From Agathobacter sp. (GTDB lineage: Bacteria; Bacillota; Clostridia; Lachnospirales; Lachnospiraceae), in assembly GCA_017481285.1 (NCBI GenBank), contig JAFUPI010000061.1, forward strand, positions 1 to 53,485: a DNA stretch of 53,485 nucleotides. Direction: 5' to 3'. The notes beneath the pieces were generated by a model. The model made no database searches. It saw only the letters and a list, made by a program, of their open reading frames with translations, and was not told the origin of the DNA. Of this stretch, positions 13,351 to 53,485 are shown one piece after another. Positions within the stretch are counted from its first letter, which is position 1. The number at the start of each line of letters is the position of its first letter. Position numbers and translations under genes: made by a program.

Positions 13351-13721
13351 GGCTGTCACAAATATAAATTTGTGACAGCCTTATTTTTATATTTCGAAAT
13401 AAATATGTCTCTGTATTTTGTGTGCATTTTCTCTCGGTTAAGAAAAACGCTTTATTTCTAAGAAGCACTCTGCTTGCTTGTATGATTTATTCTGTCTGTC
13501 AAAAGTTTTACAATCTGCACCGCTTTGTCCGGTGTCTGTTGCACAACGGACAAAGCGGTGCAGATAGTAAAAGCTATGCCAGACACAAAATTTAAGCAAG
13601 CAGAGTGCTTCCAGAAATAATAGCATTTTCCTTAAAAGTTCGAAAATGCACACAAAATACAGAGACATATTTATTTCAAGACATGAAGAAAGGCTACCAC
13701 AAATTTATATTTGTGACAGCC
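13351..13721. repeat. Long-hairpin element, copy 1 (short form)
   Basis: The intergenic stretch between two convergent genes is one long inverted repeat. Each end has its own small hairpin (13351-13380, perfect 13-bp stem; 13692-13721). An outer stem pairs 13396-13431 with 13642-13677, perfect over 36 bp. Imperfect middle stems follow, then a perfect 19-bp apical stem (13513-13531 with 13547-13565) closed by a 15-nt loop. Asymmetric internal loops (TTTTACAATCTGC against GCAGATAGTAAAA; AACGCTTTATTTCTAAG against AATAATAGCATTTTCC) recur in copy 2. No protein is encoded. It could be a structured RNA or a MITE-like element. Confidence 0.75.
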
Positions 13722-13729
13722 CTCTTTTT

Positions 13730-14998
13730 CTATTTTTCAAATTTGTACTGTTCAAAACAATCAAATGTCGCAAAATAATCTGCTGGTGTTTCCGCACGAC
13801 GAATCATTTTCACACTACCATCTTCCTGCAAAAGAAGCTCCGCGGATTTCAGCTTGCCGTTGTAGCTATAACCCATAGCGAAACCGTGTGCCCCTGTGTC
13901 ATGGATAACCAGGTAGTCTCCCTTGTCAATCTTAGGCAGCTTGCGGTCGATGGCGAACTTGTCGTTGTTTTCACAGAGGGAACCTACGATGTCATAGGTT
14001 TCTGTGCATGGTGCATCTTCTTTTCCAAGCACCGTAATATGATGGTAAGAGCCATACATGGCTGGTCGCATGAGGTTTACCGCACAGGCATCTACACCAA
14101 TGTATTCCTTGTAGATGTGTTTTTCATGAATCGCCTGTGTTACGAGGCAACCGTATGGTGCCATCATGAAACGTCCCATTTCCGCATAAATCGCTACATC
14201 ACCCATACCTGCTGGCACTAATACCTCTTCAAATGCCTGACGAACCCCTTCGCCGATGGCGTGGATATCATTTGGCTCCTGATCTGGTGTATAAGGTACG
14301 CCCACACCGCCAGAAAGGTTTACAAATGCGATATGACAGCCGGTTTCCTTCTGAAGCTCTACCACGAGTTCAAAGAGCTGACGTGCCAGCTTTGGATAGT
14401 ACTCGTTGGTTACAGTGTTGCTGGCAAGGAATGCATGGATACCGAAATTTTTGGCTCCTTTTTCCTTCAAAAGCTTGTACGCATCAAAGAGCTGCTCTCT
14501 TGTCATACCGTACTTAGAATCGCCAGGGTTGTCCATAATGCCATTGCTCATAGCAAACACACCGCCTGGATTGTAACGGCAGCTAATGGTTTCTGGGATA
14601 TATCCCAAGGTATCTTCCAAGCACTGGATGTGAGTAAAGTCATCCAAATTGATGATAGCACCTAATTCATTTGCATAAGCAAATTCTTCTAAAGGTGTCT
14701 CATTGGATGAGAACATGATATGCTCTCCATCCATCCCACATGCCTTTGCCATCATAAGCTCTGTCATGGAGGAACAGTCGCATCCGAAGTCATATTCCTT
14801 CAAAATATCAATCAAAAATGGGTTTGGCGTCGCCTTTACCGCAAAATATTCACGAAATCCTTTGTTCCACGCGAAGGCTTCCTGCACTGCTTTCGCATTG
14901 GCACGAATCCCTGCTTCATCATAGAGATGAAATGGAGTGGGATATGTTTTTACAATTTCTTCCACCTGTTCTTTTGTTACAAAAGGTAATTTCTTCAT
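13730..14998 (-). CDS. lysA: Diaminopimelate decarboxylase
   Basis: A 422-residue fold-III PLP enzyme that makes lysine from meso-diaminopimelate. The PLP lysine is in EYFAVKATPNP (about residue 54). Also visible are the glycine-rich NLSGGVGVPY phosphate-binding segment, EMGRFMMAPYG, and the C-terminal DACAVNLMRPAMYGSYHH and CENNDKFA (catalytic Cys) motifs. Length fits the family. It stands alone, between hairpin element 1 and a divergent transglycosylase gene; the element's right hairpin probably serves as its terminator. Confidence 0.9.
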   Translation of the reverse strand: MKKLPFVTKEQVEEIVKTYPTPFHLYDEAGIRANAKAVQEAFAWNKGFREYFAVKATPNPFLIDILKEYDFGCDCSSMTELMMAKACGMDGEHIMFSSNETPLEEFAYANELGAIINLDDFTHIQCLEDTLGYIPETISCRYNPGGVFAMSNGIMDNPGDSKYGMTREQLFDAYKLLKEKGAKNFGIHAFLASNTVTNEYYPKLARQLFELVVELQKETGCHIAFVNLSGGVGVPYTPDQEPNDIHAIGEGVRQAFEEVLVPAGMGDVAIYAEMGRFMMAPYGCLVTQAIHEKHIYKEYIGVDACAVNLMRPAMYGSYHHITVLGKEDAPCTETYDIVGSLCENNDKFAIDRKLPKIDKGDYLVIHDTGAHGFAMGYSYNGKLKSAELLLQEDGSVKMIRRAETPADYFATFDCFEQYKFEK

Positions 14999-15195
14999 TT
15001 ATCTTTCTCCTTAAATTATAATGATTCAGAGCCACATTCGCAAAATAATACTTTCTTAGACTACAACAACTTGGCGTTTATTTCAAGAGACTTTTATGTT
15101 ATACTTTCTATAATTATTGGGTATAATCTCAAATCTTGTTTGTGCCGATATAAATTATGGTACAGATTGACTTTTTTTACAGAAAGAGAAAAATT

Positions 15196-16008
15196 ATGGC
15201 AATTAAAGTAAGTACATATACTCCAACTTCATCCATAGATACCAGCGGTAAGACCACCATTACCGATATCCCAGAGGAACAATCCTTCCAGGATGTTTTG
15301 GTGCTGAACCAAACCGCCTTGAAAGCTATGACCATCGATGCCATGGTAAAACAAAGTGCCACTGGCTCCGTAAATCCAGATGCTGTAGATGCTGCTGCCA
15401 TTATGCGCTTCCGCAGTACCCTGGGTGCCAATATCCAGGCACCTATCCCAACAGATGAATGGGATGCAGGCACACCTATCAAGGTGCATGTACCGCCAGC
15501 GACACCTACGATTACGAAGCCTGCGACTAGTACGACTCCTAGTGGAAATACACCGATTACAAATGAATCTGTGAACAACAAAAATAACACTTCCACAGAC
15601 GAGGTTCCAAATGATGGTGTCTTGGCATGCAGCGAAGAACTCAACCAGTACTTCGCAAAAGCCGCAGAAACCTATGGTGTAGATGCGAAACTGCTCAAAT
15701 GCGTGGCTTATGCAGAGTCACGATTCCGTCCTGATGTCACCAGCAAGTCTGGTGCTATGGGTGTGATGCAGCTCATGCCAAAATCAGCGGAATATTTAGG
15801 CGTTACCGATGCCTATGATGCAGAACAGAATATTATGGGCGGTGCCAAATTCCTCGCTTCTCTCTTGAAGCAATTCGATGGAAATATCGAGTACGCTCTC
15901 GCTGGCTACAATGCTGGACCAAACCGCGTAGAAGAATATGGTGGTATCCCACCTTACGAAGAAACACAGAACTACGTAAAACAGATTATGTCTATTTATA
16001 ATTCATAA
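15196..16008 (+). CDS. Lytic transglycosylase (SLT domain)
   Basis: About 270 residues from ATG 15196 (MAIKVSTYTPTSSID). The first 150 residues are low-complexity, rich in Thr, Pro, Asn and Ser, with no clear signal peptide. The C-terminal 115 residues are an SLT lysozyme-like fold: catalytic Glu in CVAYAESRFRPDVTS, then GAMGVMQLMPKSAEYLG, and the AGYNAGPNRVEEYGGIPPY end. It would cleave peptidoglycan with 1,6-anhydro product formation. Transglycosylases lacking a signal often belong to flagellar or phage systems; no flagellar genes other than chemotaxis ones are seen here. Confidence 0.85.
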   Translation: MAIKVSTYTPTSSIDTSGKTTITDIPEEQSFQDVLVLNQTALKAMTIDAMVKQSATGSVNPDAVDAAAIMRFRSTLGANIQAPIPTDEWDAGTPIKVHVPPATPTITKPATSTTPSGNTPITNESVNNKNNTSTDEVPNDGVLACSEELNQYFAKAAETYGVDAKLLKCVAYAESRFRPDVTSKSGAMGVMQLMPKSAEYLGVTDAYDAEQNIMGGAKFLASLLKQFDGNIEYALAGYNAGPNRVEEYGGIPPYEETQNYVKQIMSIYNS

Positions 16009-16086
16009 TTCCAAATAAATTTCAGTTGACATTTTGGATTACTCATAGTATGATTTAACAGTTGACGCAGTCAACTTCATACGAAT

Positions 16087-16159
16087 GCTACTATAGCTCA
16101 GGTGGTAGAGCGCTACATTGGTAATGTAGAGGTCACGGGTCCGACTCCCGTTAGTAGCT
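16087..16159 (+). tRNA. tRNA-Thr (GGT)
   Basis: A 73-nt cloverleaf. The acceptor arms GCTACTA and TAGTAGC pair, the D-arm is AGCTCAGGTGGTAGAGC, the anticodon stem CTACA/TGTAG holds GGT (16120-16122), and the T-arm reads CGGGTCCGACTCCCG. CCA is not encoded. Confidence 0.92.
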
Positions 16160-16160
16160 T

Positions 16161-16190
16161 AAAAAGCCCTCGATTTTCGGGGGCTTTTTT
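16161..16190 (+). terminator. tRNA-Thr terminator
   Basis: AAAAAGCCC and GGGCTTTTTT pair around a short loop directly after the tRNA; U-run rightward. Confidence 0.85.
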
Positions 16191-16204
16191 ATATCTGAAA
16201 TCGC

Positions 16205-16233
16205 TTGACTTTCGAACAAACGTTCTGTATAAT
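16205..16233 (+). promoter_or_regulatory. Toxin promoter with LexA/DinR-type box
   Basis: TTGACT (16205-16210), 17-bp spacer, TATAAT (16228-16233). The spacer holds CGAACAAACGTTCT (16213-16226), which matches the Firmicutes SOS box CGAACRNRYGTTYC at all but the last base. A bound LexA would cover both promoter boxes, so the toxin mRNA should be DNA-damage inducible. Confidence 0.75.
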
Positions 16234-16315
16234 CTTTTCACGGAGTAATCGTGTACAAGGTGGTAGCCTCCCATATGATATGAGCCAAGGCTCGCATAGA
16301 GGGGAGGTGGTGTCA

Positions 16316-16411
16316 ATGACTACATATGAAGCAATATCCTTGATGATAGCGTTTGGAATGTTAATCATAACACTGCTTGCCTATATTGATAGGAACAACA
16401 AGCGAAAATAA
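16316..16411 (+). CDS. Type I holin-like toxin peptide
   Basis: A 31-residue peptide beginning MTTYEAISLMIAFGMLI and ending in RNNKRK. It starts at ATG 16316 behind GGGGAGG. One hydrophobic helix followed by a basic tail matches the Firmicutes Hol-Tox (putative holin-like toxin) family, small membrane-damaging type I toxins kept silent by antisense RNA. The promoter carries a LexA-type box, and an antisense transcript converges on the 3' end. Confidence 0.8.
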   Translation: MTTYEAISLMIAFGMLIITLLAYIDRNNKRK

Positions 16412-16503
16412 AAAATAAGCCTACCTTTGTACTTGGCGGTCGAAGGTAGGCTTAAAAACTTATATTCGAGGCTAACCACCATGTGGGCGGTTGCTCCATT
16501 CCT
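16405..16503 (-). ncRNA. Predicted antitoxin RNA, antisense to the toxin mRNA 3' end
   Basis: A leftward promoter, TTTACA (16533-16538), 17 bp, TAATAT (16510-16515), predicts a start near 16503. A strong hairpin (AAGCCTACC with GGTAGGCTT, 16417-16453) followed by a U-run leftward would end the RNA beside the toxin stop codon. The roughly 100-nt RNA would pair with the toxin 3' UTR. This is the layout of TxpA/RatA-type systems. The boundaries are inferred. Confidence 0.65.
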
Positions 16504-16558
16504 ATTACTATATTATCACCATTACTTTTAAATGTAAAGGTTTAATATATCATTATTC

Positions 16559-17149
16559 TTACAACTCCACTACATAATGATGAAAGGCATTAATCACCTT
16601 GGTCTCTCCGACTTTATCCTCTCTCGGATACTGACGACCGTAATTCATATGTACATGTCCATGAACGAAATATTTGGGATTATATTTTTGGATGAGCTCA
16701 CCAAAGGTTTCAAACCCTCTATGTGGCAAATCCTCCCCATCATTTACGCCATAGGCTGGTGCATGGGTAACCAGCACATCAAAGCCCTTCTTGCGTAGCA
16801 ATTTGAACCAGAGACGGCGAGCTCTCCTTCTCATCTCCTCTTCTGTAAACTGATTACCACCTTCTTTGTATCGGTAAGAACCTCCCAATCCTAAGAAACG
16901 CACCCCTTCATATTCATAGATATCATCTTCAATACAGATACAGCCTTCTGGTGGACGATTCTCATATTTATAGTCGTGGTTGCCTTTAATATACAAAACC
17001 GGAATAGAGGTCATCGTAGTAAGAAAGCTTAGATACTCTGCCTCCAAATCTCCACAGGAAACAATCAGGTCGATTCCTTCAAAAGCTTCTCTACGAAAGA
17101 AATCCCAATATTCTTTTGACTCCTCATCAGAAATAAATAATATTTTCAT
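16559..17149 (-). CDS. Metallophosphoesterase
   Basis: A 196-residue calcineurin-like phosphoesterase. Metal-binding motifs appear in order: ISDEES near the N-terminus (the usual DxH has E in place of H), SCGDLEAEY, KGNHDYK, THAP and HGHVHMNYG. Length fits the small MPP class. It lies 3 nt after the ParB-like/BMP gene on the same strand, so the two are one operon. The substrate cannot be told. Confidence 0.8.
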   Translation of the reverse strand: MKILFISDEESKEYWDFFRREAFEGIDLIVSCGDLEAEYLSFLTTMTSIPVLYIKGNHDYKYENRPPEGCICIEDDIYEYEGVRFLGLGGSYRYKEGGNQFTEEEMRRRARRLWFKLLRKKGFDVLVTHAPAYGVNDGEDLPHRGFETFGELIQKYNPKYFVHGHVHMNYGRQYPREDKVGETKVINAFHHYVVEL

Positions 17150-17152
17150 TCC

Positions 17153-19063: not shown

Positions 19064-19152
19064 AAGCAAACTCCTTTTATTGGTGTATTGTAATCTTTTT
19101 TCTATTGTATCACATTCAGAACAAAAAATAGAGAAAAATAAAAATAATTTTC

Positions 19153-19181
19153 TTCCATATTTTGCACTTGTTTGCTATAAT
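19153..19181 (+). promoter_or_regulatory. cheC-cheY promoter
   Basis: TTCCAT (19153-19158), 17 bp, then an extended -10, TGCTATAAT (TATAAT at 19176-19181). Confidence 0.55.
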
Positions 19182-19215
19182 GTAGGTTAGGATAAAGGTA
19201 CTATGGAGGATTACA

Positions 19216-19794: not shown

Positions 19795-19795
19795 A

Positions 19796-20183: not shown

Positions 20184-20731
20184 GGCTGTCACAAATATAC
20201 ATTTGTGGCAGCCTTTTTTATATTTTGGAATAAATATGTCGCTGTGTCTTCTAAAGAATTTCTTTCGTTAAGCAAAACGCTTATTTTCTAAGAAACACAC
20301 TTCCGACTCTTGTGATTTTTTATGTCTTTCAAATATTTTACAATCTGCGAAAGTATATCCGTGTGAGAAAAGACACCATTACAGACTTTTCACGTGTCTC
20401 TTAGTACGACGGATTTATATAATGTCATATGCATGCTCGACTGTCTGAGATGCTGTTTTTGCATCGAGTTTCGAGCATGCATATGTAATATCAACTATAT
20501 AAAGACGTCGTACTTAGAGACACTAGGAAAGGATGTACCAGTGTCTTTTTCACATCGGAGCATACTTCGCAGATAGTAAAATAGATGAAAGACATAAAAC
20601 TTAAGTCGGAAGTGTGTTTCGAGAAAATATAGCGTTTTCCTTCAATGCTCGAAATTCCTTAGAAGACACAGCGACATATTTATTTCCAATTCTAAGAAAA
20701 AGGCTGCCGCAAATGTATATTTGCGACAGCC
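20184..20731. repeat. Long-hairpin element, copy 2 (long form)
   Basis: It fills the space between convergent cheY and mecA. Small hairpins bound it (20184-20213 and 20702-20731). The outer stem pairs about 20226-20262 with 20651-20687 (35 of 37). Middle stems pair around 20300-20345 and 20570-20625. An apical domain (about 20345-20580), absent from copy 1, ends in a perfect 15-bp stem (20426-20440 with 20471-20485). Internal loops AACGCTTATTTTCTAAGAA/AAAATATAGCGTTTTCC and TTTTACAATCTGC/GCAGATAGTAAAA match copy 1, although the flanking helices have different sequences that still pair. Confidence 0.75.
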
Positions 20732-25586: not shown

Positions 25587-25875
25587 AATAAAAAGGATTA
25601 CTTCCTCTCCTAGAGACGAAGTAATCCGTGGTTCCACTCTAATTTGAAATATATACCTGCGTCGAAAGTTCTAATCTCATATCGTATATATTTCCTCAAA
25701 ACACGTAACATGTGTCAATCGTACTCAGCTAGGTAAGTTGAAACTCTCGTCACAGACTACTTCACCAAGTCAGCTCCCGGATGCACTTTCGAAATATAAA
25801 ACCAAAGCGGCTTTCAGCCGGTGACCGCTTCTCTCTTTTGCTTTACGTTACTTTCTACTCTTTCCGTTCAAAGCC
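25587..25875 (-). promoter_or_regulatory. Cysteine T-box riboswitch
   Basis: On the leftward strand, the T-box core AGAGTGGAACCACGG (about 25620-25645) precedes a terminator that pairs GGATTACTTC with GAAGTAATCC and ends in U5. The Stem I region contains GAAAGTGCATCC, in which TGC (complement 25783-25785) sits where the specifier codon is expected, matching tRNA-Cys. Uncharged tRNA-Cys would stabilise the antiterminator and switch on the whole operon. The rest of 25545-25951 holds no gene. Confidence 0.9.
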
Positions 25876-25881
25876 TTTTGT

Positions 25882-38318: not shown

Positions 38319-41300
38319 TTATTTTACATTTTTTCTTCTAGAAACTGTCATACCAGTCATTGCCATAGCAAATCCTACAAGTAATACGAGGAAATATACG
38401 CCTGGCATGCTGCTATCTCCAGTATCTGGAGTTACTGGTGGTGTAGGAGTGATATCTTCATTCTCTTCTACATCTGTGTAAATCAATGCATAGGTTGAGA
38501 AACGGTCTGTCTTAAATGATAAGGTTCCATCTTCATTTTCCCATACATCCAATACATCTGTCTGACCTTCATGAATACGAACAACACCGAACGTTCTTCC
38601 TTCTTTCTTCCATTCTTCTGGAATTTCAAAGGTCAAAGTAATTTCTTCAGAAAGTTTATTTAATGTACCTAATTCCTCTCCAGATTCTTCTGTCTTCAAT
38701 ACTACCTTAATATCTAAGTACTGAGCGATTACAGATAATCCTTCATCTAAAAGTTCTACTGCTGATTCTACTAATTCTTTCGCAGCCTCATCAACCTCTA
38801 CTTCTTTCAAGTTTTCAATGATGAGTTCTGTAATGATTGCTTCATCATTTTCAATTGCTTCCTGTACTTTTTCTAAGGTTTCTTCGGAAACAACGCCTTC
38901 TTCAAGTTCGTCGTTTGCGATCTTATCTGTCAGCTTACCAGCTTCATCTTTCACCTGTTCCTGGATATCTTCCTCTGGAACGTAAACCACATCTTCTTCC
39001 TCTGGATCAACCGGTGGGTCTACCGGATCTTCTGGGTCTACCGGTGGAACCTCTGGGTCCTCTGGATCTTCTGGATCTACTGGTGGGTCTACTGGATCCT
39101 CTGGTTCCTCTGGATCTTCTGGCTGTAACTGTCCAAGTGTTACATCTGCAAGAGTAGTTTCCTGTTTACCTTCTGCATCTAAGAAGAGCTTACCGCATTC
39201 TTCACATACATAGTATTCTTTATTACCAGTTGCTTCTGTAGTAGGTGCTTTTGCATCTACCTTGGTAAGGTCGTGGCCTAATGCATCGATGGTAACATCT
39301 GTAAGTGTAGTTTCCTGTGTGCCTTCTGCATCTAAGAAAAGCTTATCACAAGCATCACATACATAATGTGCTTCATTTCCTGTTTCAGTACAGGTTGGAG
39401 CGTTTGCTTCTACTTCTGTAAGAACATGTTTTACAGTTACTGTACAGCTTGCTGTTAAACCTTCTTCTGTAGACACTGTAATAACTGCTGTTCCTGCGCC
39501 CACTGCTGTCACTTTACCTGTTGCATCTACTGTTGCTACTTTTGCATCACTTGTAGTCCATGATAACTGTGTATCTGCTGGAACTGCTGTTGCTGTAAGT
39601 GTTGCAGTTTCTTCTTCCTTCAAGGTAAGTGTTTCTTTGTCTAAGCTTACGGAATCTTTTTCGCCTACTGTTACTTCACATGTAGCACTTACACCATGCA
39701 ATGTACTTACTGTGATTGTAGCTTCACCTACACCAACAGCTGTTACCTTTCCATCTGCATCTACTGTTGCTACATTTTCATGTGATGAAGTCCAGATCAA
39801 TGTACTATCTGCTGGATTTACAGTTGCTGTAAGGTTTGCTGTAGCACCTTCTTTAATAGAAAGTGTTTCGTCTACTGTGATGGTTACGTTGTTGTTTAAA
39901 GTATATACAGAATTTGTATCTACTGTTTCACCCTTTACGAGTACCAATACAGAGTGAGCTTCTACGGTTGGCCATGAAGCACTTTCGTTTACATTAATTG
40001 TTCCAAGCACCTCAGCACCTGCATCTTCTGCATTTACACAAATTTTCCATGTACCTGTAGATGCACCGAGATTTTCTATAATGTTTACGCCTCTCTCTTC
40101 ATCGGAAGCATTGTAAATAATAACGATTTCATCGGCTACTTCGCCTTCGACTTTTGTACCATCTAACTTATATGCAAGTAAGTAGTTGTCATAAGAATAT
40201 GTGGTTAATACTTCGCTTACTTGTGCATCTGTTGTCAGACGAAGTGCTTCGTGGTTCTTACGGAACTCGATTAAGCCCTTATAGTACTCTACGGTATCTG
40301 CGTACAATGCATAATTTCCTTCTGTTCCATCCAGATTATACCAACGTAATGTGTTTACATAATCAGATGCATTGTAACTATTGTGGATAACTGTTCCATC
40401 TGTATCCAATTTCGTTCTTAAGAATTCTTCTCCTGCATGAATGAATGGGATACCCTGTGCAAACATATAGTATGCTGCGGATAAATTGTTCAATTTAACC
40501 TGATATTCACCAGGTGCATCATCATAACTATCATATTCTGCATTCGATACTTCATTGATCTTGTCCATCAAAGTATAGTTGTCATGACAAGATGCATAGT
40601 TAATGGTCTGTGTTGGTTCTGGACACCATGAAGAATTTCCTGCAAAAGCATATTTCAGAGTGTCAGCATTGCCGGTAATCCAAATGAAGCCCTGTCCATT
40701 TGTGTTATTTCCTGCTAAATTATCGCGAAGTGTATCGCTAAAGTATGCAAAACCAGGTGTCAGGTTTGCATTTGCCTGTGTAGCCATGTAGTAACCATCT
40801 TTGCTTAATGCTGTGCCTAAAGTCCAGCCTTCGCCGTAGAAAATAATATCTGGGTCAAGTTTATGTACTTCTTCAACAATCTTGTTGATGGTTACAGTAT
40901 CTAATAAACCTACCAAGTCGAAACGGAAGCCGTCGATATGGTATTCTTCGTGCCAGTAAAGAATAGATTCTACTACATATTTGTGAACCATAGAACGTTC
41001 GGTTGCAGTATCATTACCACAGCCTGAACCATTGGAGAAGGTTCCGTCTGCATTGGTTCTAGAGAAGTAGCTTGGTACAATCTGGTTGAAACCAAATGTA
41101 CCTGCATCGTATACGTGGTTGTAAACTACGTCCATGATAACGTTGATATTGTTGTCATGTAATGCTTTTACCATCTGTTTCATTTCGCTTACTCTGCTTG
41201 CACCATCGTATGGGTTAGTAGAGTAAGAACCTTCTGGTACGTTATAGTTTAATGGATCATAACCCCAGTTGAACTGTGGTTCGTCTAATTTGGTTTCATC

Positions 41301-44300
41301 TACAGATGCATAGTCATATACTGGTAATAAGTGTACATGCGTTACACCCAAATCAATGATGTGGTCCAAACCAGTAGACTGACCGCCTGGTGTAGTTGTG
41401 CCAGTTTCAGTAAGTCCAAGGAATTTGCCCTGATACTCTTCTGATACACCAGAACTATCATCGCTTGAAAGGTCTCTTACATGCAATTCATAGATGATTG
41501 CATCTGTGTAAGACATTCCATTATTTGGCATCTTATCCTTGTCTTCTTCCCATCCTTCTGGATCGGTGCTGTCTAAGTCAAGAATCATCGCACGGTTACC
41601 ATTTACACCAGTAGTTCTAGCGTAAGGGTCACATACTTCGTTTGTTTCATTATTTACGGAAACAGAGTAGGTATAGTATTTACCATTCCAGTCTCCTGTT
41701 AATTCGTAAGTCCATACACCTTTTTCGCCATAGGTCATTTCATAAGAGCCAATCTTATCGTCTGTTCCCTTGGTACCGCTTGTGTATACATTCAATACTA
41801 CCTTTTCTGCAGTTGGAGCCCATACTTTAAATGTAGATTTAACATCTGTGTATGTAAGACCTAAATCATCGCCATCATAGGTGTAAGCATCTTCAAACTC
41901 TTTGGTAGAATAGATATTTGGCATAACGAGCTTATAGTCGTTACCTTCAAATGTAAGCTGGTAAGACTTCAATACTTCGCTCATAGATGTCAAATCTTTG
42001 TTAATTGTTAAAGTATAAGTAGATCCGTTTACAACTACGTTTTCGATTGTAATAGGAGTATTGGTTGTAGTACATTCAATCTCAAACGCTGTCAATGGAT
42101 TACCTGAAATTGGACGAGAGGTTGTGATTTGGAATGTATTATTAATTCTGTCATAGCTTGTGCTTACAATCTTGTTTCCAATGATTGCATCACTACCAAG
42201 TGATCTTGTACCACCCCAAACACCTTGCTCTACATAATAATGCACTGTACCAGAAACGATATCAGAAATATCAATTGCCTGGTCTTTTGCATCATGGTCA
42301 TTTTCCTTCCAATCGCCTTTACGCATACGGAAGTTAATAGTTGTATTGCTACGTCCATCTACTGTGATAGAAGTAACCATGTCACCATTTGCATCTTCTT
42401 CAAAGTCGTATCTTGCACCGCCTGCGGTATCAGCCCATAACCAAGCGTTCCAATCTGTATAGTCGTTATTCGTTCTCTTGTAGTGGATTACTACAGTTAC
42501 TTCATTGGTATCTTCGATATCCAAAGAAGCACCTTCTGTCTGTACTAATACAACTGTACCACCCGTTCTTGCACCAGGAATACCAACAACGATAGAACCA
42601 TCGCTACCTACTGTATAAGTATTTCCGCTGTATTCATCTGTGTAAATGCTGCCTACAGCACCATCTACGTAGATTCTTACTGTCTGTGTTTCATCCCATA
42701 CGTTGGTTCCTACATAAATGGTTTCACCTTCATAGCTTCTTGCGAATACTTCGTATCCACTTTCTTTGAGTGTACCATTTCTATCAGACTGACGTTCTGG
42801 AAGGATTACGCTGTAACGTTCACCTTTTGCAAAAACTTCTGAATATTTTGCACGGATGTTGAGCATCTTCTGGTAATGAGCAAGCATTGCATTATCGCCG
42901 CTTTCTACTTCACTCCAGTCGAAGTCATAACGATTATCCTGTGCAGGATAGTTGTTTGCACCAGTCTGGCCAATTTCCTCGCCATAATAAATAACTGGCT
43001 GGCCTTTGGCTGTAATCTGGTATGTAGCAGCTACCTTCATCAACTCATATGCCCAATCACCTTTTGTCTGCATCATGTCATATAAGAAACCATTTTCATC
43101 GTGGCTGCTTAAGAAAGAGCCCATAGTAGCTGTGTTGTTTAACATTAAATTACGATTCTGTAATGCTTCTTCAAGTGCTGCAAAATCCTGTGTTAAAAGG
43201 CTTGTTAAAATATCATTAAAGTGGAAGTCCAAAATGGAATCCATCATGCCTGTGCCAAGCTGATCATAATCATTGTAGCAACCAGCATCATAATATTCGC
43301 CAATTAACTTAAATCTAGAATTAATTTTTACAATTTCATTCTTGAATTCCATCCATGTAGTATCATCTACATGTTTTACGGTATCTACACGATAGTAGTC
43401 GATATCATAATTTGTAATCCATGCTTTCTGCCATGCAATCAAAAGTGCACGTACTTCTGGATCTTCTGTCTCGAAATCTGGTAAACCGGAAAGAGACATC
43501 TTTTCATCATCATCTTCTACTGGTTCATCACGGAACATATCTTCATAAATCTTGTTTCCGCCGCCATCTACGAATCCAGTATCCATCTGGAACTCTTCGC
43601 TATCCTGAGTTTCATAACCACTGTGGTTAAGAACCACGTCAACCATGATCTTCATGCCTCTTGCATGAGCTTCCTCAATCAAGGTCTCTAATTCTGCTTC
43701 TGTACCAAGATGTGGGTTTAATTCAGTGAAGTCTTCTGCCCAATATCCATGGTAAGCATATGAATTGTTGGTTCCATCTACTGCTTCGTCAATATTGTCA
43801 ACGATAGGTGTAATCCAGATTGTGTTTACGCCTAAGTCTTCCAAGTAATCTAATTTCTGTGTTAAACCAGCAAAGTCACCACCGTGAACGCCAAGTGAGT
43901 TGTCCTTGTCGTAAGCTGTAGTAGTTTCTTCATCGTCTGTTACTGTATTGTTTGATTCGTTTCCGTCATAGAAACGGTCTGTTACTGCAAAGTAAATAAC
44001 TGCTTCATCCCAGTCGAAGTCACCTTCTACTTTCACTCTTTCTGCTACAGTTACAGTCACTTCACCAACATATTCCATATCGCAGTCGTCTACCAAAATA
44101 GCCTTAACTACATAATCCCCTGGTTCTACTGTGTCTGCGCATCCGATTGAAATCTGAAGTTTTCTTTCATCTGCTTTTGCATCTAAATACTGTTTGCTTA
44201 CTTCTACTTTGCTTCCCAATCCAAGTTCGGATAAATCCAAATATACCTGTTCTAACTTGAATCCATCCATGCTATCCATTGCTGTTTTTGGACCATATTC

Positions 44301-46166
44301 GATCGTAATAAGGTTGTTCATGTCATAGTCCATGGTTTCATACCATGCACCTACATTAACTGCAATGTTGTATACCTTATTTCTATTGTAGCTGTATTCT
44401 ACGTCTTCTAATGTTGCTTTCTTGGTAGTGTTAAGATCATCTACCTTTGCACCGTTTACTGTATAGTAATAGTAGTAATCGGTATCATCTGTTAAATCTA
44501 ATTCATAGGTATATGCACTCAATGATGCATTGTATGTCATCGCATAAGTTGCTACTTCAGATGTAGCTTCATCTGTCTTTTCAATTACATTTACTACTAC
44601 CTGTGCACTTTCGCCCAGATATCCGATACCTTCTGTTGCAAAAACGGTATTGTCTCTGTAGTTGAATGCAATGTAACCATCTTTACGATGAATTTCGCTA
44701 CTCTTAACAGTAGTCATGTCTTTTACAATGCTTCCACCAGAGAACATAATCTTGCCATATCCTACTTCTGCATCAACTGCACAGAAAAGGTCGCCGCCTT
44801 CTTTGGTATTATTTTCCCATCTAGGACAAGAGTTTACCAAGAAGCCAAGTTTTCTATCATTTTCTCCATCAAATTTTACTGGAACCTTTGCAATATAAGT
44901 TCCATCTTCGGTTTCTTTGAAAGGTACGAAGAATCCACTTTCACTATATCCGTTTGCCCATGAATATACACATTTGCCCGCAGATGGTGTTCCTGCATAT
45001 TCCACGAACATATAGCCACCCTCACTCAAATCAGGTACGTCATTCAAATCGGTATATAAAGTACCATTCATGTAGTAAAGAGTCTGGTCTCCGCCAGATG
45101 TATTTGTATGTTTAATATCTGCAGTCTGCCAAGCCCAATCTCCCTTACTCTTAATAAGGAATCCGATAGATGACGCAGCTTCCTTCACTTCTGCCTTAAG
45201 CCAGTTTTCTCCTTTGAATGTTCCACCGTCCGTCAACGTAACATCTGCACCAGCTCCGCCATCACTCCAAGCATAGATTGCTGATTTATCTACATCCCAA
45301 TCGTCCTGGATGTAGATGGTGTAATCATAGGTAGCAGTACCAGACGCGCCACCGCCTAATAATTCATCAATCTTATCTGGATTATCAATACTGTTATACA
45401 AAACATAATTGTTCATGTCAGCGATAAATTTAATTTCGCTAACGCCAGCTGGAATTGTATAATTAATATCTCCGCCACTATTATTAATACCATCCCAGGT
45501 TCCATTACATGTAACTTTATATGAAATCTCAACAGCACTAGCCGTTTCATCAAAAGTCATATGCTTATAGTAAAATCCATTTCCCAAATGTTCCATTCTT
45601 GGGGTTCCATTGCTAGTATTTGCCCATTCTTCTGTAATTGAACAATTACCAAGTACACTGGCAAAATTACCAGCCATATTAACATAGATTCCAGCCAATT
45701 TATCATCTACTGTCGTATCATCACCGATACTATAGTAAACATAAGACTCATCTGTTAAAACCTTTAACTGCGTTGTACCACTTGGAAGAGTAACTGCAAT
45801 GTTAGAGGTACCACCATTTGCACCAATACTCCAATCCCAACTTCCATTAAACGCAACTTTGAACTCTATAGCTACATCAGATGGAAGTGCATCAAATGTA
45901 ATCAACTTATAATGATATTTCATGCCGAGGCTTTCCATCTTGCCCCCAGCATCTCCTGGAGTCCAGCTTGCTGTTACATTACTGTTGTAATTTTGCAAAT
46001 TTTCAAACGATCCTACGACTGTTGCATAATTTGAACTAGCCGCCTTAAATGTGTCCGCAGGAATATAGATCCCCATCATAGTAAAAAGCATCACTACTAC
46101 AAGCAGCATACTTGTTACTCTTTTGAGCATCTTCTTTCCAAGTTTCTTGAAACTCGTCCCTTTCAT
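38319..46166 (-). CDS. Giant cell-wall-anchored amylase-pullulanase
   Basis: A 2615-residue exoprotein. Signal peptide about 1-42. Two repeated X25-like modules (about 45-145, 170-265) and CBM41-like modules (about 280-370 and 1220-1320) should bind starch. The first GH13 domain has DVVLNHSGYE (about 845), YRVDTVKHV with the nucleophile (about 924), GEYYD (957) and SSHDENG (1022). The second follows a CBM48-like stretch (1425-1520): pullulanase signature FNWGYDP (1633), DVVYNH (1680), FRFDLVG (1747), GEGW (1778), CHDN (1860). Two BIG2 domains (2090-2240), a Cys-bearing duplicated stretch, a Pro/Glu linker (2347-2395), then PDTGD plus a membrane helix and Arg/Lys tail, a sortase signal. It would debranch and cut starch at the cell surface. 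Confidence 0.93.
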   Translation of the reverse strand: MKGTSFKKLGKKMLKRVTSMLLVVVMLFTMMGIYIPADTFKAASSNYATVVGSFENLQNYNSNVTASWTPGDAGGKMESLGMKYHYKLITFDALPSDVAIEFKVAFNGSWDWSIGANGGTSNIAVTLPSGTTQLKVLTDESYVYYSIGDDTTVDDKLAGIYVNMAGNFASVLGNCSITEEWANTSNGTPRMEHLGNGFYYKHMTFDETASAVEISYKVTCNGTWDGINNSGGDINYTIPAGVSEIKFIADMNNYVLYNSIDNPDKIDELLGGGASGTATYDYTIYIQDDWDVDKSAIYAWSDGGAGADVTLTDGGTFKGENWLKAEVKEAASSIGFLIKSKGDWAWQTADIKHTNTSGGDQTLYYMNGTLYTDLNDVPDLSEGGYMFVEYAGTPSAGKCVYSWANGYSESGFFVPFKETEDGTYIAKVPVKFDGENDRKLGFLVNSCPRWENNTKEGGDLFCAVDAEVGYGKIMFSGGSIVKDMTTVKSSEIHRKDGYIAFNYRDNTVFATEGIGYLGESAQVVVNVIEKTDEATSEVATYAMTYNASLSAYTYELDLTDDTDYYYYYTVNGAKVDDLNTTKKATLEDVEYSYNRNKVYNIAVNVGAWYETMDYDMNNLITIEYGPKTAMDSMDGFKLEQVYLDLSELGLGSKVEVSKQYLDAKADERKLQISIGCADTVEPGDYVVKAILVDDCDMEYVGEVTVTVAERVKVEGDFDWDEAVIYFAVTDRFYDGNESNNTVTDDEETTTAYDKDNSLGVHGGDFAGLTQKLDYLEDLGVNTIWITPIVDNIDEAVDGTNNSYAYHGYWAEDFTELNPHLGTEAELETLIEEAHARGMKIMVDVVLNHSGYETQDSEEFQMDTGFVDGGGNKIYEDMFRDEPVEDDDEKMSLSGLPDFETEDPEVRALLIAWQKAWITNYDIDYYRVDTVKHVDDTTWMEFKNEIVKINSRFKLIGEYYDAGCYNDYDQLGTGMMDSILDFHFNDILTSLLTQDFAALEEALQNRNLMLNNTATMGSFLSSHDENGFLYDMMQTKGDWAYELMKVAATYQITAKGQPVIYYGEEIGQTGANNYPAQDNRYDFDWSEVESGDNAMLAHYQKMLNIRAKYSEVFAKGERYSVILPERQSDRNGTLKESGYEVFARSYEGETIYVGTNVWDETQTVRIYVDGAVGSIYTDEYSGNTYTVGSDGSIVVGIPGARTGGTVVLVQTEGASLDIEDTNEVTVVIHYKRTNNDYTDWNAWLWADTAGGARYDFEEDANGDMVTSITVDGRSNTTINFRMRKGDWKENDHDAKDQAIDISDIVSGTVHYYVEQGVWGGTRSLGSDAIIGNKIVSTSYDRINNTFQITTSRPISGNPLTAFEIECTTTNTPITIENVVVNGSTYTLTINKDLTSMSEVLKSYQLTFEGNDYKLVMPNIYSTKEFEDAYTYDGDDLGLTYTDVKSTFKVWAPTAEKVVLNVYTSGTKGTDDKIGSYEMTYGEKGVWTYELTGDWNGKYYTYSVSVNNETNEVCDPYARTTGVNGNRAMILDLDSTDPEGWEEDKDKMPNNGMSYTDAIIYELHVRDLSSDDSSGVSEEYQGKFLGLTETGTTTPGGQSTGLDHIIDLGVTHVHLLPVYDYASVDETKLDEPQFNWGYDPLNYNVPEGSYSTNPYDGASRVSEMKQMVKALHDNNINVIMDVVYNHVYDAGTFGFNQIVPSYFSRTNADGTFSNGSGCGNDTATERSMVHKYVVESILYWHEEYHIDGFRFDLVGLLDTVTINKIVEEVHKLDPDIIFYGEGWTLGTALSKDGYYMATQANANLTPGFAYFSDTLRDNLAGNNTNGQGFIWITGNADTLKYAFAGNSSWCPEPTQTINYASCHDNYTLMDKINEVSNAEYDSYDDAPGEYQVKLNNLSAAYYMFAQGIPFIHAGEEFLRTKLDTDGTVIHNSYNASDYVNTLRWYNLDGTEGNYALYADTVEYYKGLIEFRKNHEALRLTTDAQVSEVLTTYSYDNYLLAYKLDGTKVEGEVADEIVIIYNASDEERGVNIIENLGASTGTWKICVNAEDAGAEVLGTINVNESASWPTVEAHSVLVLVKGETVDTNSVYTLNNNVTITVDETLSIKEGATANLTATVNPADSTLIWTSSHENVATVDADGKVTAVGVGEATITVSTLHGVSATCEVTVGEKDSVSLDKETLTLKEEETATLTATAVPADTQLSWTTSDAKVATVDATGKVTAVGAGTAVITVSTEEGLTASCTVTVKHVLTEVEANAPTCTETGNEAHYVCDACDKLFLDAEGTQETTLTDVTIDALGHDLTKVDAKAPTTEATGNKEYYVCEECGKLFLDAEGKQETTLADVTLGQLQPEDPEEPEDPVDPPVDPEDPEDPEVPPVDPEDPVDPPVDPEEEDVVYVPEEDIQEQVKDEAGKLTDKIANDELEEGVVSEETLEKVQEAIENDEAIITELIIENLKEVEVDEAAKELVESAVELLDEGLSVIAQYLDIKVVLKTEESGEELGTLNKLSEEITLTFEIPEEWKKEGRTFGVVRIHEGQTDVLDVWENEDGTLSFKTDRFSTYALIYTDVEENEDITPTPPVTPDTGDSSMPGVYFLVLLVGFAMAMTGMTVSRRKNVK

Positions 46167-46571: not shown

Positions 46572-46573
46572 CT

Positions 46574-48200: not shown

Positions 48201-48208
48201 TATGCATT

Positions 48209-49384: not shown

Positions 49385-49440
49385 ACAATTCACCTCTCCA
49401 CATATACTAATACAAAAGCCCCTTTTCGGAGGTATTCGTT

Positions 49441-50772
49441 ATTCTTTCTCAAATTAAAAAACACCCCTTAATCCTTGGCACCGCATTGCTCACCGGTGCA
49501 GGTATCATAAGCAGAATACTGGGCTTCTTTTATAGAATATTCTTATCACAAACCATTGGTGCCAGCGGACTAGGCTTATATCAACTGATTTTTCCTGTTT
49601 TCACCCTTTGTTTAGCAATATCTGCAAGCGGTATCCAAACCGCCATCTCGCGTTATGTTGCATCGGAAAAAGCCTCTCGCAGATATTTGTTCAGCGGTAT
49701 GATTTTATCCGTGACTCTAGCTGGGCTTTTGGCTATTTTCGTACACACTTTGGCCCCTTGGATTGCTTCTGATATTTTAAAGGAAGCTCGTACCACAGAA
49801 TTACTCCAGCTCATGAGCTATTCTCTGATTCCCGCTGCCATCCACGCCTGTTTCAACGGTTATTACTATGGCAAAAAGAATTCTATCCCACCTGCCCTCT
49901 GCCAAATCATCGAGCAGCTGGCAAGGGTTTTCGGCACTTTATTGATTTATCAGGTCTTACTGGAAGAAGGACGTCCTTTGGAGCCGATTCATGCGGTTTG
50001 GGGCTTAGTCATCAGTGAACTGGCAGGCCTTTTGGTAAATATCACAGCATATCTTATTACAGATACTATCTCGATTGCCCGTACAGCAGCTGGCACAACC
50101 ATAAAAACAGCTTTATGGAACAAGTTCTCGCAACCATTAAAAAACTTGAGTATTATGGCCATTCCTCTGACCTTAAACCACATTTTGATGACCTTAAGTC
50201 ACAGTTTGGAAAATCTATTACTTCCACAACAATTGATGGCATTTGGCTACAGTTCGGACGAAGCACTTGCACACTTTGGAATTTTGACCGGCATGGCGCT
50301 TTCGGTTATATTTTTTCCTTCTGCCATCACCAACTCACTTTCCGTCCTCCTGCTACCACGCATTTCTGAGACCAAATCCAGAGGCGATATGTGTGCTGTT
50401 TTAGACACAATAAAAGGAGCCATGTGCTGTGGTGTAGCATTAGGCTCCTTATGTACCTTCCTTTTCTTATTGTCTGCGGATTGGTTCGGTATCTACATAT
50501 TTGATAACACTCTGGCAGGATTCTATATCCGCACACTAAGTATACTCTGTCCGTTTATGTATACCTCTAGTCTGCTCAGTAGCATTGTAAATGGATTGGG
50601 TTATGCTTCGCTGACACTGGCCTGCAATCTATCTGGATGTTTCGTACGTATCCTTGCCATCTGGTTTCTGGTACCAGTATACGGGATGTATGCGTATATT
50701 ATTTCGATGATTGTCGCGGCTGTTGTAGTGACTGGAGAACTGATGATCGTGGTGAAGAGGAAGTGTGGGTAG
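49441..50772 (+). CDS. SpoVB/MurJ-like lipid flippase, possible ATT start
   Basis: About 443 residues if started at ATT 49441, eight bases after a perfect GGAGG (49428-49432); reading begins ILSQIKKHPLILGTALLTGA. The next usable start is TTG 49486, which has no ribosome site and would cut into the first helix. Twelve or more membrane helices; the family start LLTGAGIISRILGFFYRIFL and ASGIQTAISRYVASEKASRR are clear. It belongs to the MOP superfamily polysaccharide-biosynthesis/SpoVB branch. Confidence 0.8.
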   Translation: MLSQIKKHPLILGTALLTGAGIISRILGFFYRIFLSQTIGASGLGLYQLIFPVFTLCLAISASGIQTAISRYVASEKASRRYLFSGMILSVTLAGLLAIFVHTLAPWIASDILKEARTTELLQLMSYSLIPAAIHACFNGYYYGKKNSIPPALCQIIEQLARVFGTLLIYQVLLEEGRPLEPIHAVWGLVISELAGLLVNITAYLITDTISIARTAAGTTIKTALWNKFSQPLKNLSIMAIPLTLNHILMTLSHSLENLLLPQQLMAFGYSSDEALAHFGILTGMALSVIFFPSAITNSLSVLLLPRISETKSRGDMCAVLDTIKGAMCCGVALGSLCTFLFLLSADWFGIYIFDNTLAGFYIRTLSILCPFMYTSSLLSSIVNGLGYASLTLACNLSGCFVRILAIWFLVPVYGMYAYIISMIVAAVVVTGELMIVVKRKCG

Positions 50773-50871
50773 TCAAGCAAGCTCGACCCACGTCACACCG
50801 TGACTTTCCGTCGCTTTACAAGCGACTCGGCTCTCGCTTTTTGGCTGGCGCCAAACTACAGATAAAAAATA

Positions 50872-50904
50872 GAGCGATATTGCAAGTAAACTTACATATC
50901 GCTC
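50872..50904. terminator. Bidirectional terminator
   Basis: GAGCGATAT pairs with ATATCGCTC, with A6 and T6 runs on either side; shared by the flippase gene and convergent efp. Confidence 0.85.
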
Positions 50905-50923
50905 ATTTTTTATCTTTGCTTGA

Positions 50924-51481
50924 CTATACGCGGCTGAGATATTCTCCAGTACGTGTATCAATTTTAATTACGTTTCCAATTTCAACGAATAATGGAACCA
51001 TAACTTTTGCACCAGTTTCAACGATAGCTGGCTTTGTAGCACCTGTTGCTGTATCGCCTTTGAAGCCTGGTTCTGTATCTGTAATTTCTAATTCTACGAA
51101 CAATGGTGGTTCTACTGCGAAAACGTTACCATTGTGTGAACAGATTTTGCACATTTCGTTTTCTTTTACGAATTTAAGAGCATCACCAACAGATTCCTTT
51201 GTTAAGCTAATCTGGTCATATGTTTCTACGTCCATGAAGTTGTAGAAATCATCATCACCATATAAGTACTGCATATCTTTTCTATCGATACGAGCCTGTG
51301 GGAATTTTTCTGTAGGACGGAAACTTGTTTCTACGATACCGCCACTGATGATATTACGTAATTTTGTTCTAACGAATGCTGCACCTTTACCAGGTTTTAC
51401 ATGCTGGAATTCAATAACCTGACAGATATTTCCATCATATTCGATGGTCATACCATTTCTAAAATCGCCTGCTGTTACCAT
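50924..51481 (-). CDS. efp: Translation elongation factor P
   Basis: A 185-residue EF-P with three beta domains. The N-terminal KOW-like domain reads [20 protein letters not shown] and [17 protein letters not shown]: the loop tip residue is Lys in KPGKGAAF. Then the OB domains ([20 protein letters not shown], and [20 protein letters not shown]). It rescues ribosomes at polyproline stretches, which the giant amylase linker contains only as PP pairs. Confidence 0.95.
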
Positions 51482-51598
51482 TTACGATCTTCCTCCTTAA
51501 ATTTTGTGTTTGCACAATTCTTTGACTATTCTACTATAAAACAGCCTATATTTCAACTTGTTTTTCCTTGAAAAGCACGGAAAATACAAGTTTTTTCC

Positions 51599-52036
51599 TT
51601 ATTTTTCTAAGTCAGATATCATATCTACACGCATCTGGTGTCTTCCACCCATGAATTCTGCTTCTAAATATGCTTTTACGATATCTTTTGCAAGTTCACT
51701 GCCTACAATACGTGCACCAAACGCAATGATATTTGCGTTATTGTGTTCTTTGATTAAATGTGCTGTTGCAACATCGGAACAAACTCCTGCACGCACACCT
51801 TTTACTTTGTTTGCTGCGATAGAGATACCTACACCAGTACCACAAATAAGGATACCACAGTCAAAACCTTCTTCTACAACTGCATGTCCCACACGTGCAC
51901 CGATTTCTGGATAGTTGCAGCTGTCATTTGTATCTGTACCAAAGTTTACTACTTCATGTCCTAATTCTTTTACATACTCCATAATTTCAAATTTAAGAGC
52001 TGTAGCTGCGTGATCATTACCAATTGCGATTCTCAT
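51599..52036 (-). CDS. rpiB: Ribose-5-phosphate isomerase B
   Basis: A 145-residue RpiB/LacAB-family isomerase. It begins MRIAIGNDHAATALKFEIME; the catalytic Cys is in GILICGTGVGISIAANKV, and the phosphate-binding end is NIIAFGARIVGSELAKDIVK. It links ribose- and ribulose-5-phosphate. Its C-terminus is short, as in RpiB rather than LacA/B. It lies 14 nt after the YqeG gene. Confidence 0.9.
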   Translation of the reverse strand: MRIAIGNDHAATALKFEIMEYVKELGHEVVNFGTDTNDSCNYPEIGARVGHAVVEEGFDCGILICGTGVGISIAANKVKGVRAGVCSDVATAHLIKEHNNANIIAFGARIVGSELAKDIVKAYLEAEFMGGRHQMRVDMISDLEK

Positions 52037-52050
52037 AATCTATTCTCCTT

Positions 52051-52590
52051 TTATTTATCGAAAGACTTTGCAGAACTTTCATATTTCTCACCAAATACTT
52101 TACGTGCAATCTTGTAGAAAAACAAGATTAATTTCTCAGGTATTCGTTTTAATACAATCTGAATTTCTTCCTTTGGATGAATTGGTTTTACTAAAATGGT
52201 ACGAATTCCTGCCAAATTAGCTCCCATAACATCTGTAAAAATCTGATCCCCTACGAACAAAGTGTTGTCTGTTGTAGTTCCCATGATTTCCATTGCCTTC
52301 TTATAATTGCCCGGCATCGGTTTGTTTGCTTTGAAAATGTAGTTTACCTGCACCACATCGTTAAACATCTTCACACGAGGCTCTTTATTATTGGAAAGGA
52401 GCATGCAGGAATATCCCAATTCCTTCAAATGTGCAAACAATTCCTTCGCTCTTTCATCCGCAGGAGCTCCATGTGGCACCAAGGTATTATCTACATCAAA
52501 GATAACTGCACGATAGCCGTCCTTATACAATTTATCAAAATCAATCACATAGGTGGAGTCTAAATACTCTCCTGGGAAAAATATAGCCAT
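52051..52590 (-). CDS. YqeG-family HAD-IIIA phosphatase
   Basis: About 179 residues from ATG 52590 (MAIFFPGEYLDSTYVIDFDK), after AAGGAG. HAD motif I is AVIFDVDNTLVPHG, motif II CMLLSNNKEPR, and motif IV LFVGDQIFTDVMGANLAG. It resembles YqeG (mitochondrial PTPMT-like GEP4 relatives), implicated in phosphatidylglycerophosphate dephosphorylation; that role is known only for the family. Confidence 0.87.
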   Translation of the reverse strand: MAIFFPGEYLDSTYVIDFDKLYKDGYRAVIFDVDNTLVPHGAPADERAKELFAHLKELGYSCMLLSNNKEPRVKMFNDVVQVNYIFKANKPMPGNYKKAMEIMGTTTDNTLFVGDQIFTDVMGANLAGIRTILVKPIHPKEEIQIVLKRIPEKLILFFYKIARKVFGEKYESSAKSFDK

Positions 52591-52611
52591 CTTCCAATTC
52601 TCCTTAAAAAA

Positions 52612-52640
52612 GGAAAGAATCTCGACGGGAGATTCTTTCC
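52612..52640 (-). terminator. nrdR terminator
   Basis: GAAAGAATCTC pairs with GAGATTCTTTC (loop GACGG region), U-run leftward. Confidence 0.8.
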
Positions 52641-52650
52641 CCAATGAATG

Positions 52651-53100
52651 CTAACCTAACATTTTCTTCAATTCGTTCATAAATGTATTTACATCTTTAA
52701 ATTCACGATATACAGATGCAAAACGAACATATGCAACAGAATCCAAGTCTTTTAATTTATCCATAAGGATTTCACCGATTACTGTACTTGGAATTTCTTT
52801 TTCTTCTCTGTTGAAGATTTCTACTTCTACTTCATCTACCAATTTAGTAATCTGATCTGCAGAAATAGGACGTTTATGACATGCACGAAGTACGCCAGCT
52901 TCAATCTTAGAACGATCATACTGTTCACGAATATTGTCTTTTTTAATGACAATGAGTGGAATAGTTTCCACTTTTTCATAAGTGGTAAAACGTTTGCCAC
53001 AATCATCACAAAGACGACGACGTCTGATAGAATTGTTGTCATCTGCTGGACGTGAGTCAATTACTCTAGTGTTTTCACTGCTACAAAAAGGACATTTCAT
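52651..53100 (-). CDS. nrdR: Transcriptional repressor NrdR
   Basis: A 149-residue NrdR. Zinc ribbon: MKCPFCSSENTRVIDSRPAD and RRRRLCDDCGKRFTTYEKVE. The ATP-cone follows: VIKKDNIREQYDRSKIEAGV, CHKRPIS. It senses (d)ATP and represses ribonucleotide reductase genes. It is first of a short leftward group with yqeG and rpiB, partly separated by a terminator. Confidence 0.95.
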   Translation of the reverse strand: MKCPFCSSENTRVIDSRPADDNNSIRRRRLCDDCGKRFTTYEKVETIPLIVIKKDNIREQYDRSKIEAGVLRACHKRPISADQITKLVDEVEVEIFNREEKEIPSTVIGEILMDKLKDLDSVAYVRFASVYREFKDVNTFMNELKKMLG

Positions 53101-53146
53101 AATGCCACCTCCGATTCTGCCAATTTACGCATAATAATATACTGTA

Positions 53147-53176
53147 AGTATACCCTTATCTTGCGGTTTTTGTCAA
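53147..53176 (-). promoter_or_regulatory. nrdR promoter
   Basis: Leftward TTGACA (53171-53176), 18 bp, TATACT (53147-53152). Confidence 0.65.
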
Positions 53177-53260
53177 TAAATTCCACCAAATTCCACTAAA
53201 TATTCAGTTTATAAAGTTGGCTCTCCCTAAATTCCGAGTTGGCGACCCCTTATGTTTATT

Positions 53261-53485
53261 TTGAAATAAAATATGTCGCTGTGTCTTCTAGGGAATTTCG
53301 AACCTTTAAGGGAAACGCGTTTATTTTCTTGAAACACTCTGCTGGCTTAAATTTTGTGTCTGGCATAGCTTTTACTATCTGCACCGCTTTGTCCGTGTGC
53401 AACAGACACCGTACTCCTATTTCTGTTTCTCTAATGTGGGCAGTCTTATAAAGTTGATATTACATGAGCCATGCAAAAACTCGGT
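53261..53485. repeat. Long-hairpin element, copy 3 (cut by window edge)
   Basis: It begins near TTGAAATAAAATATGTCGCTG and follows the reversed right arm of copy 1 (AACACTCTGCTGGCTTAAATT, then TTTTACTATCTGCACCGC). From about 53410 it switches to match the apical domain of copy 2: CTCTAA and GTTGATATTACAT, the latter also at 20484-20496 in reverse. So it is the long form in the opposite orientation, and only its first half is present. The rest of 53101-53260 holds the nrdR promoter. Confidence 0.7.

Follow-up and report, generated by a model that had tools for sequence, protein, structure and literature searches.

Hairpin elements in the window and in the source genome

The stretch of DNA analysed here (the window) comprises 53,485 nucleotides of Agathobacter sp., contig JAFUPI010000061.1 of assembly GCA_017481285.1, and carries three copies of a long, imperfect hairpin element, here called W1, W2 and W3. 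A first-pass annotation of the same DNA had described hairpin elements at 13351-13721 (W1) and 20184-20731 (W2), with a small hairpin at each end of both, and this description holds: both copies fold nearly perfectly from end to end. The predicted RNA minimum free energy is -215.7 kcal/mol for W1 (z -25.6, folded as 13345-13730) and -305.7 kcal/mol for W2 (z -31.4), with 0 of 100 shuffles equal in either case. No open reading frame (ORF) of at least 80 amino acids lies inside W1 or W2, the two copies checked, and an ORF at 13646-14221 overlaps the end of W1.

W2 (plus strand) is a complete 548-bp element located between convergent genes encoding a response regulator and a MecA-like protein. 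Its 5' and 3' end hairpins (20184-20213 and 20702-20731) are both of the type A described below. The apical core, 20397-20523, scores 134.8 bits with our covariance model R2; the 19 sequences from which R2 was built include the same tip, via locus L001. The core contains a conserved 5' internal-loop segment AATGTC (20421-20426), the two sides of the tip loop motif, CTGTCTGA (20441-20448) and GAGTT (20466-20470), and a conserved 3' internal-loop segment TAATATCAAC (20486-20495), all on the plus strand.

W1, also on the plus strand, lies between gene 3' ends. A perfect hairpin at its 5' end (13351-13380) is followed by the terminator-like TTATTTTTA, and the hairpin at its 3' end (13692-13721) by CTCTTTTTCT. 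The outer arms are complete. Its apical part, previously thought to be short, is in fact missing: the tip motif is absent and R2 finds no tip. W3 had been placed from 53261 to the edge of the window. It is real and runs to the contig end, but starts near 53204, lies on the minus strand (53204-53485) and has the other end type, B; the neighbouring NrdR-like gene points away from it. Only one arm and part of the tip are present, giving a cut-off R2 match of 28.1 bits at 53425-53485 (minus). The internal loop of TTTTACAATCTGC against GCAGATAGTAAAA, which had been listed among the conserved loops, is not fixed; some copies read GCAGATTGTAAAA and pair fully.

The three copies recognised at first are a small part of the total. 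The source genome, G000, is a 1.96-Mb draft of 100 contigs that is 71% complete; loci in it are given "C" names. Searches with W2 and W1 gave 84 and 103 matches, which merge into at least 54 pieces, 51 of them in addition to those in the window; 40 of 82 and 40 of 84 first-look candidates were scored in these searches, so that the counts are lower bounds. Sixteen pieces are flanked by sequence on either side, and the other 38 abut a contig end. Since two contig-end pieces may be halves of one element, 54 pieces do not equal 54 elements. A further tip, at C7:6429, lies outside the 54 pieces. In the other genome searches at most 5 to 56 candidates were scored per genome, and those counts are likewise lower bounds.

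Structure of the elements

The unit is a single long imperfect hairpin of about 280-600 bp. As judged by eye, outer arms, asymmetric loops and a tip are found in all 16 complete copies except the tipless W1 and C54_10629. Some elements measure only about 300 bp or less, and what they have in common with the others is mainly the tip. An extra side hairpin in one arm only is seen in L008, L243 and L250. L267 (G279) has two tips of opposite orientation, at 1501-1612 (minus) and 1909-2016 (plus), about 300 bp apart.

Two types of end were named by eye. Type A approximates GGGCTGTCGCAAAT-NNNN-ATTTGTCGACGCCC and is hairpin-like itself, with A-rich sequence to its left and T-rich sequence after it. 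Type B approximates AATTCGYAAAGT, followed by a block that differs between most copies and then by AATTCCGATTTGGCGACGCC. This block, like the unpaired loops of the end hairpins, is mirrored in the opposite arm. A similar pattern is seen by eye in four copies from G009 (L234, L243, L250 and L254), whose aligned blocks are 85-97% identical while stretches of 12-35 bp close to the ends vary from copy to copy and, within a copy, are mirrored. Over these four copies and the type B ends of G000 together, the variable block measures 10-35 bp. At four further loci (L286, L241, L237 and L297) a locus-specific terminator-like hairpin at one end recurs in mirror image at the other.

The tip motif and its distribution

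The tip is the most constant part of the element. The motif TGTNYGA (usually CTGTYTGA) together with GAGTT is present in 27 out of 27 aligned tips from 17 genomes, 24 of which read TGTYTGA; these tips are 27 of 33 alignment rows, six antisense rows having been removed by hand. Ten tip-loop columns (T61, G62, T63, G66, A67, G123, A124, G125, T126 and T127) are fixed in all 27. The commonest base averages 0.58 in paired columns and 0.76 in unpaired ones. The motif is also found in 10 out of 10 class-level loci inspected (13 were fetched).

The first-pass annotation had suggested building a covariance model, and the models built here (R1 from 18 tips, R2 from 19 tips chosen by threshold) find diverged homologs in genus, family and class genomes. 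With the own genome counted each time, R1 matches in 9 of 62 genus genomes and in 11 of 299 family genomes (the matches in G205 and G152 being partial or weak), and R2 in 6 of 391 class genomes, of which three belong to other families. The best class-level genome is G502 (6e-9, three matches); G386 and G689 are weak. The antisense strand of true elements reaches 40-54 bits by hairpin shape alone, and weak hits were therefore counted only if they had the motif, a filter that leans the same way as the covariance model, which itself rewards the motif.

By blastn no matches were found in the 59 other genomes of a first set of relatives, which was without G070 and G065; in a later genus set, blastn matches elements in these two genomes. 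A pattern scan of named genomes revealed a second, related expansion in a goat metagenome-assembled genome (MAG), Agathobacter sp. RGIG2097 (G060), of a sister species; we take G070 to be the same genome. L085 and L090, from two roe deer MAGs, match the C76 locus of the source genome and are probably contigs of the window's species. The tip L269, at a contig end of G152, equals the W2-type tip and is likely from the same species or a contamination. The match L079 looks like chance.

Covariation and pair statistics

The helices of the tip change almost throughout. In an alignment of 18 tips (MAFFT, RNAalifold), 29 of 45 pairs have double-sided changes; in the 19-tip alignment, which was fitted to the model and so leans towards structure, double-sided changes affect 40 of 45 pairs, and 96.7% of cells pair. 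The covariation score of the 19 tips is 0.877, as compared with 0.194 (standard deviation 0.016) for shuffled alignments, none of which out of 500 reached it, and 0.09-0.16 for slid ones; both kinds of control are without phylogeny. It had been noted from the window copies that the arms changed together while the loops stayed; this proved correct and extends across species. Lack of covariation had been named as a sign of a mobile inverted repeat; the covariation is far above shuffles and slides. Overwhelming covariation together with nearly invariant loops gives good support to a selected folded structure.

Covariation alone does not show an RNA, as the changes are nearly all from one Watson-Crick pair to another. 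Among 776 pairs of the structure alignment (two loop pairs left out) there are 738 Watson-Crick, 11 G.U, 9 A.C and 18 other pairs. Isolated arm mismatches are of the G.U type in 94 cases and of the A.C type in 74 in 21 copies from G000 and G060, and in 86 and 73 cases in 20 distant elements, counts that are weakened by the fact that individual copies may decay neutrally. Counting all mismatches in the 21 copies gives 113 G.U against 135 A.C, and a larger set of tips gives 43 against 16, a single loop position contributing 17 of the 43 (26 against 16 without it). An RNA kept by stepwise compensation would show a clear excess of G.U. The excess is at most slight, so ordinary RNA selection fits less well.

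The arms look homogenised. The tip at C64:49730 is on the minus strand while its arms are on the plus strand, although it lies at a contig end where misassembly is possible; between C72_27159 and its ortholog in L091 the orientation of the whole element to its flanks is reversed. The caution in the first-pass annotation that arm-to-arm conversion could mimic covariation was well placed, as footprints of homogenisation are present as inversions, mirrored loops and mirrored copy-specific blocks. Template switching yields multiple simultaneous compensations, stem extension and inversion of loops or spacers, according to two papers (PMC8794818, PMC8604942). The present family resembles the hairpins treated there in its compensations, extension and inversion footprints and differs in being apparently mobile, the cases described there being ribosomal RNA, microRNA or yeast repeats. 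We infer that the covariation was made by copying and not by stepwise selection; with its near-pure Watson-Crick pairing and homogenised arms, the family looks more like a product of DNA template switching than of ordinary RNA selection. Under template switching asymmetric loops would be lost if they were not selected, which makes the loops the probable functional part of the element.

Empty sites and position at gene ends

For the comparison of flanks 26 segments were prepared and 22 searched; 27 comparisons with fetched relatives covered 20 loci. Both flanks align to G060 at nine loci (W1, C72_24471, C43_9143, C1, C52, C75_74462, C55, C75_37882 and C36), and all nine lack the element there. 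The W2 site is empty in G070 and in G023, and a terminator-like hairpin is found in its place. Some species have many copies per genome, with species-specific expansion and empty orthologous sites.

Six of the empty sites in G060 are of type A. By eye, four of these (W1, C43, C1 and C75_74462) hold an unrelated terminator-like hairpin, and the other two (C52 and C72_24471) a hairpin of the same end type as the element. At C52 the single 29-bp hairpin of the sister species is identical to the right end in G000 but for one base, and the left end is nearly its mirror image. Solo hairpins of the element end type are also found in G060 at L199, L200, L203, L213 and L206, in terminator position at loci with an element in G000. 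They may be scars of elements deleted down to a single end hairpin, which would explain them as well as the terminator-mirroring step mentioned below. The three empty type B sites (C36, C55 and C75_37882) show direct-repeat overlaps of 9, 2 and 5 bp. Flanking target duplications were regarded in the first-pass annotation as a mark of a mobile inverted repeat; the short direct repeats at the three type B sites are possible ones, and none were noticed at type A sites.

Eighty-two ends had enough flanking sequence, from the pieces in G000 and six copies in G060. Type A ends face the 3' end of a gene in 38 out of 44 cases, at a median of 15 bp past the stop codon, and other ends do so in 9 out of 38 (Fisher p = 8e-9 for type A against the rest, with end classes defined by eye after viewing the ends but before counting, and with ends that are not all independent). 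By both position and sequence, type A ends look like intrinsic terminators, with a hairpin and a T-run just past the stop codon. Type B ends face away from the gene in 16 out of 20 cases, those at a median of 90 bp, as do 13 of the 18 unclassified ends. The idea that elements insert into a host terminator at its loop was dropped for the source genome, because the outer type A arms are family-specific and not locus-specific there. C52, together with L286, L241, L237 and L297, may nevertheless reflect a terminator-mirroring step.

Comparison with known families

In agreement with the first-pass annotation, which recognised no named RNA family, Rfam gives no match for the element at the gathering score; the whole window yields only a T-box and three transfer RNAs. 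Searches by E-value with L229, L237 and six more loci gave only sub-threshold matches, mostly to microRNA hairpin models, the strongest being MIR1437 on L263 with 70.9 bits, where the gathering score is 168. Such elements are apparently undescribed: none were found in the open-access literature, judged by titles and abstract openings, which is no proof of absence.

A Y1 transposase (Y1_Tnp) was not found in six out of eight genomes bearing the element (G000, G060, G065, G009, G174 and G254), of which G000, G065 and G009 are 71-84%, G254 98% and G174 100% complete. One each is present in G012 and G103. Mobilisation by a Y1 transposase, as in IS200/IS605 or RAYT-REP systems, was accordingly set aside. 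No autonomous transposon sharing the element ends was noticed among the matches listed, the source genome being 71% complete and broken at the copies, nor was a half-element beside a gene among the matches listed for G000 and G060.

An origin from phages or plasmids was set aside, as there are nearly no blastn matches: none in phages for W1, L310 and L263, and none in plasmids for W2, L310, L237, L263, L330 and L333. L330 matches one phage record without annotation over 52% of the query. A first search pattern gave no matches in viral contigs. The motif ACTGTYTGAGC-gap-GCGAGTTT is found in 10 viral stretches, in seven of them at the tip of a long hairpin (folds read by eye). In these seven contigs (L327, L328, L330, L331, L332, L333 and L336) the tip motif heads long hairpins in sequences that differ widely in G+C content, so the family may cross phyla, beyond Clostridia.

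Several known systems share part of the pattern. Miniature inverted-repeat transposable elements (MITEs) are likewise short, non-autonomous, intergenic and present in many copies; the present elements are short and multicopy, with inverted repeat ends and no coding capacity in W1 and W2, but differ in that their internal loops are conserved amid saturated covariation, that copy-specific blocks are mirrored and that terminators seem to be replaced. REP/RAYT and IS200/IS605 elements are also imperfect, repeated, intergenic hairpins, comparable in that no target duplication is seen at type A sites, whereas the present element is much longer and the folded unit is the whole element. The attC sites of integrons may work alike, with a strand folded to a hairpin in which stems can vary and unpaired bases are conserved. 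The present element is longer than attC and no cassette array was noticed; attC boxes and an integrase were not searched for. The large bacterial RNAs OLE, ROOL and GOLLD are similar in size, covariation and conserved loops; the present family differs from them in being a single rod-like hairpin, multicopy, apparently mobile and almost Watson-Crick-only, and in matching no Rfam family at the gathering score.

Nature of the elements

We consider it probable, with moderate confidence, that these elements form a non-autonomous mobile hairpin family, moved via the folded strand by a putative factor, with arms kept alike by DNA copying. Small fixed loops amid changing stems suggest that something recognises the folded strand. 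Movement would depend on the folded single strand, the loops being read in trans by the putative factor. Template switching between the arms during replication would keep them complementary, and could also invert tips and extend mirror symmetry. Copies may be tolerated, and perhaps kept, at the 3' ends of genes because the element ends would terminate transcription. A broader proposal, which we put forward only tentatively, is that of a new mobile class, common in Clostridia and possibly present beyond, which would move as a folded single strand read by a loop code (CTGTYTGA/GAGTT), land at terminators and replace them, and carry a mirrored copy-specific block close to its ends.

Several observations weigh against a mobile hairpin family. 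No mobilising enzyme was identified, the search made being that for Y1 transposases in eight bearer genomes. No target duplication is seen at the type A (terminator) sites and the old terminator seems to be gone, which ordinary transposition leaves unexplained. Chance may account for the short, AT-rich direct repeats at the three type B sites, and none of the three empty sites has the mirrored block seen in type B ends. C83 is occupied also in G060, where only the right flank aligns, and C72_27159, which lies outside the flank query, is occupied in both species. The association of type A ends with gene 3' ends depends on classes drawn by eye and on partly dependent ends, and the inverted tip of C64 may be a product of misassembly. 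The fixed loops would suit an RNA just as well.

The latter is the strongest alternative, although we regard it as unlikely: a family of large structured non-coding RNA genes that also spreads, with the RNA fold and its loops as the product. The nearly invariant asymmetric loops on one strand, the strand-specific motif, the helices that covary throughout, the wide distribution across genus, family and class genomes and the small leads of G.U over A.C (94 to 74, 86 to 73 and 43 to 16) are all as expected of an RNA. Set against this are the lack of a clear G.U preference in the other counts (11 to 9 and 113 to 135), dozens of copies per genome of which two complete ones (W1 and C54_10629) are tipless, the terminator positions and the negative Rfam result. 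The structured RNA proposed in the first-pass annotation is therefore retained in part: a selected fold with fixed loops stands, while pairing that is almost only Watson-Crick, homogenised arms and copies that look mobile speak against it.

Still less probable, in our view, is a palindromic MITE of an ordinary DDE transposase, the loops of which would be inherited sequence that homogenisation has not reached. Long inverted repeats, the short direct repeats at type B sites, high copy number and the lack of an ORF of at least 80 amino acids in W1 and W2 are in line with such a MITE. The helices are, however, saturated with change in 17 genomes while the tip motif persists in all 27 tips, so neutral inheritance of the loops fails, and neither a duplication at type A sites nor, among the matches listed, a half-element beside a gene was seen. 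Finally, immobile bidirectional terminators or insulators, selected by the host and grown by template switching, would account for the 38 of 44 type A ends facing gene 3' ends and for the terminator-like hairpins that relatives hold at such places, but are very improbable given that most type B ends (16 out of 20) point away from genes and that the same conserved tip at unrelated loci is hard to reach by local growth.

Covariation generally counts as strong support for a functional RNA. The present family is a large natural case of near-total covariation in which the pair statistics, like the inversions, indicate DNA template switching, while the loops are truly conserved; here the choice between RNA selection and arm copying can be put to a direct test. 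The family would also be an addition to the mobile elements of gut Lachnospiraceae, one that takes up terminator positions. As 38 of the 54 pieces touch contig ends, the elements probably break draft assemblies.

Other features of the window

Two further features of the window were noted. A T-box leader is predicted by Rfam at 25609-25880 (minus strand). An ORF of 2615 amino acids at 38319-46166 (minus strand) encodes alpha-amylase, pullulanase-associated and Ig-like domains and is a candidate cell-surface amylopullulanase.

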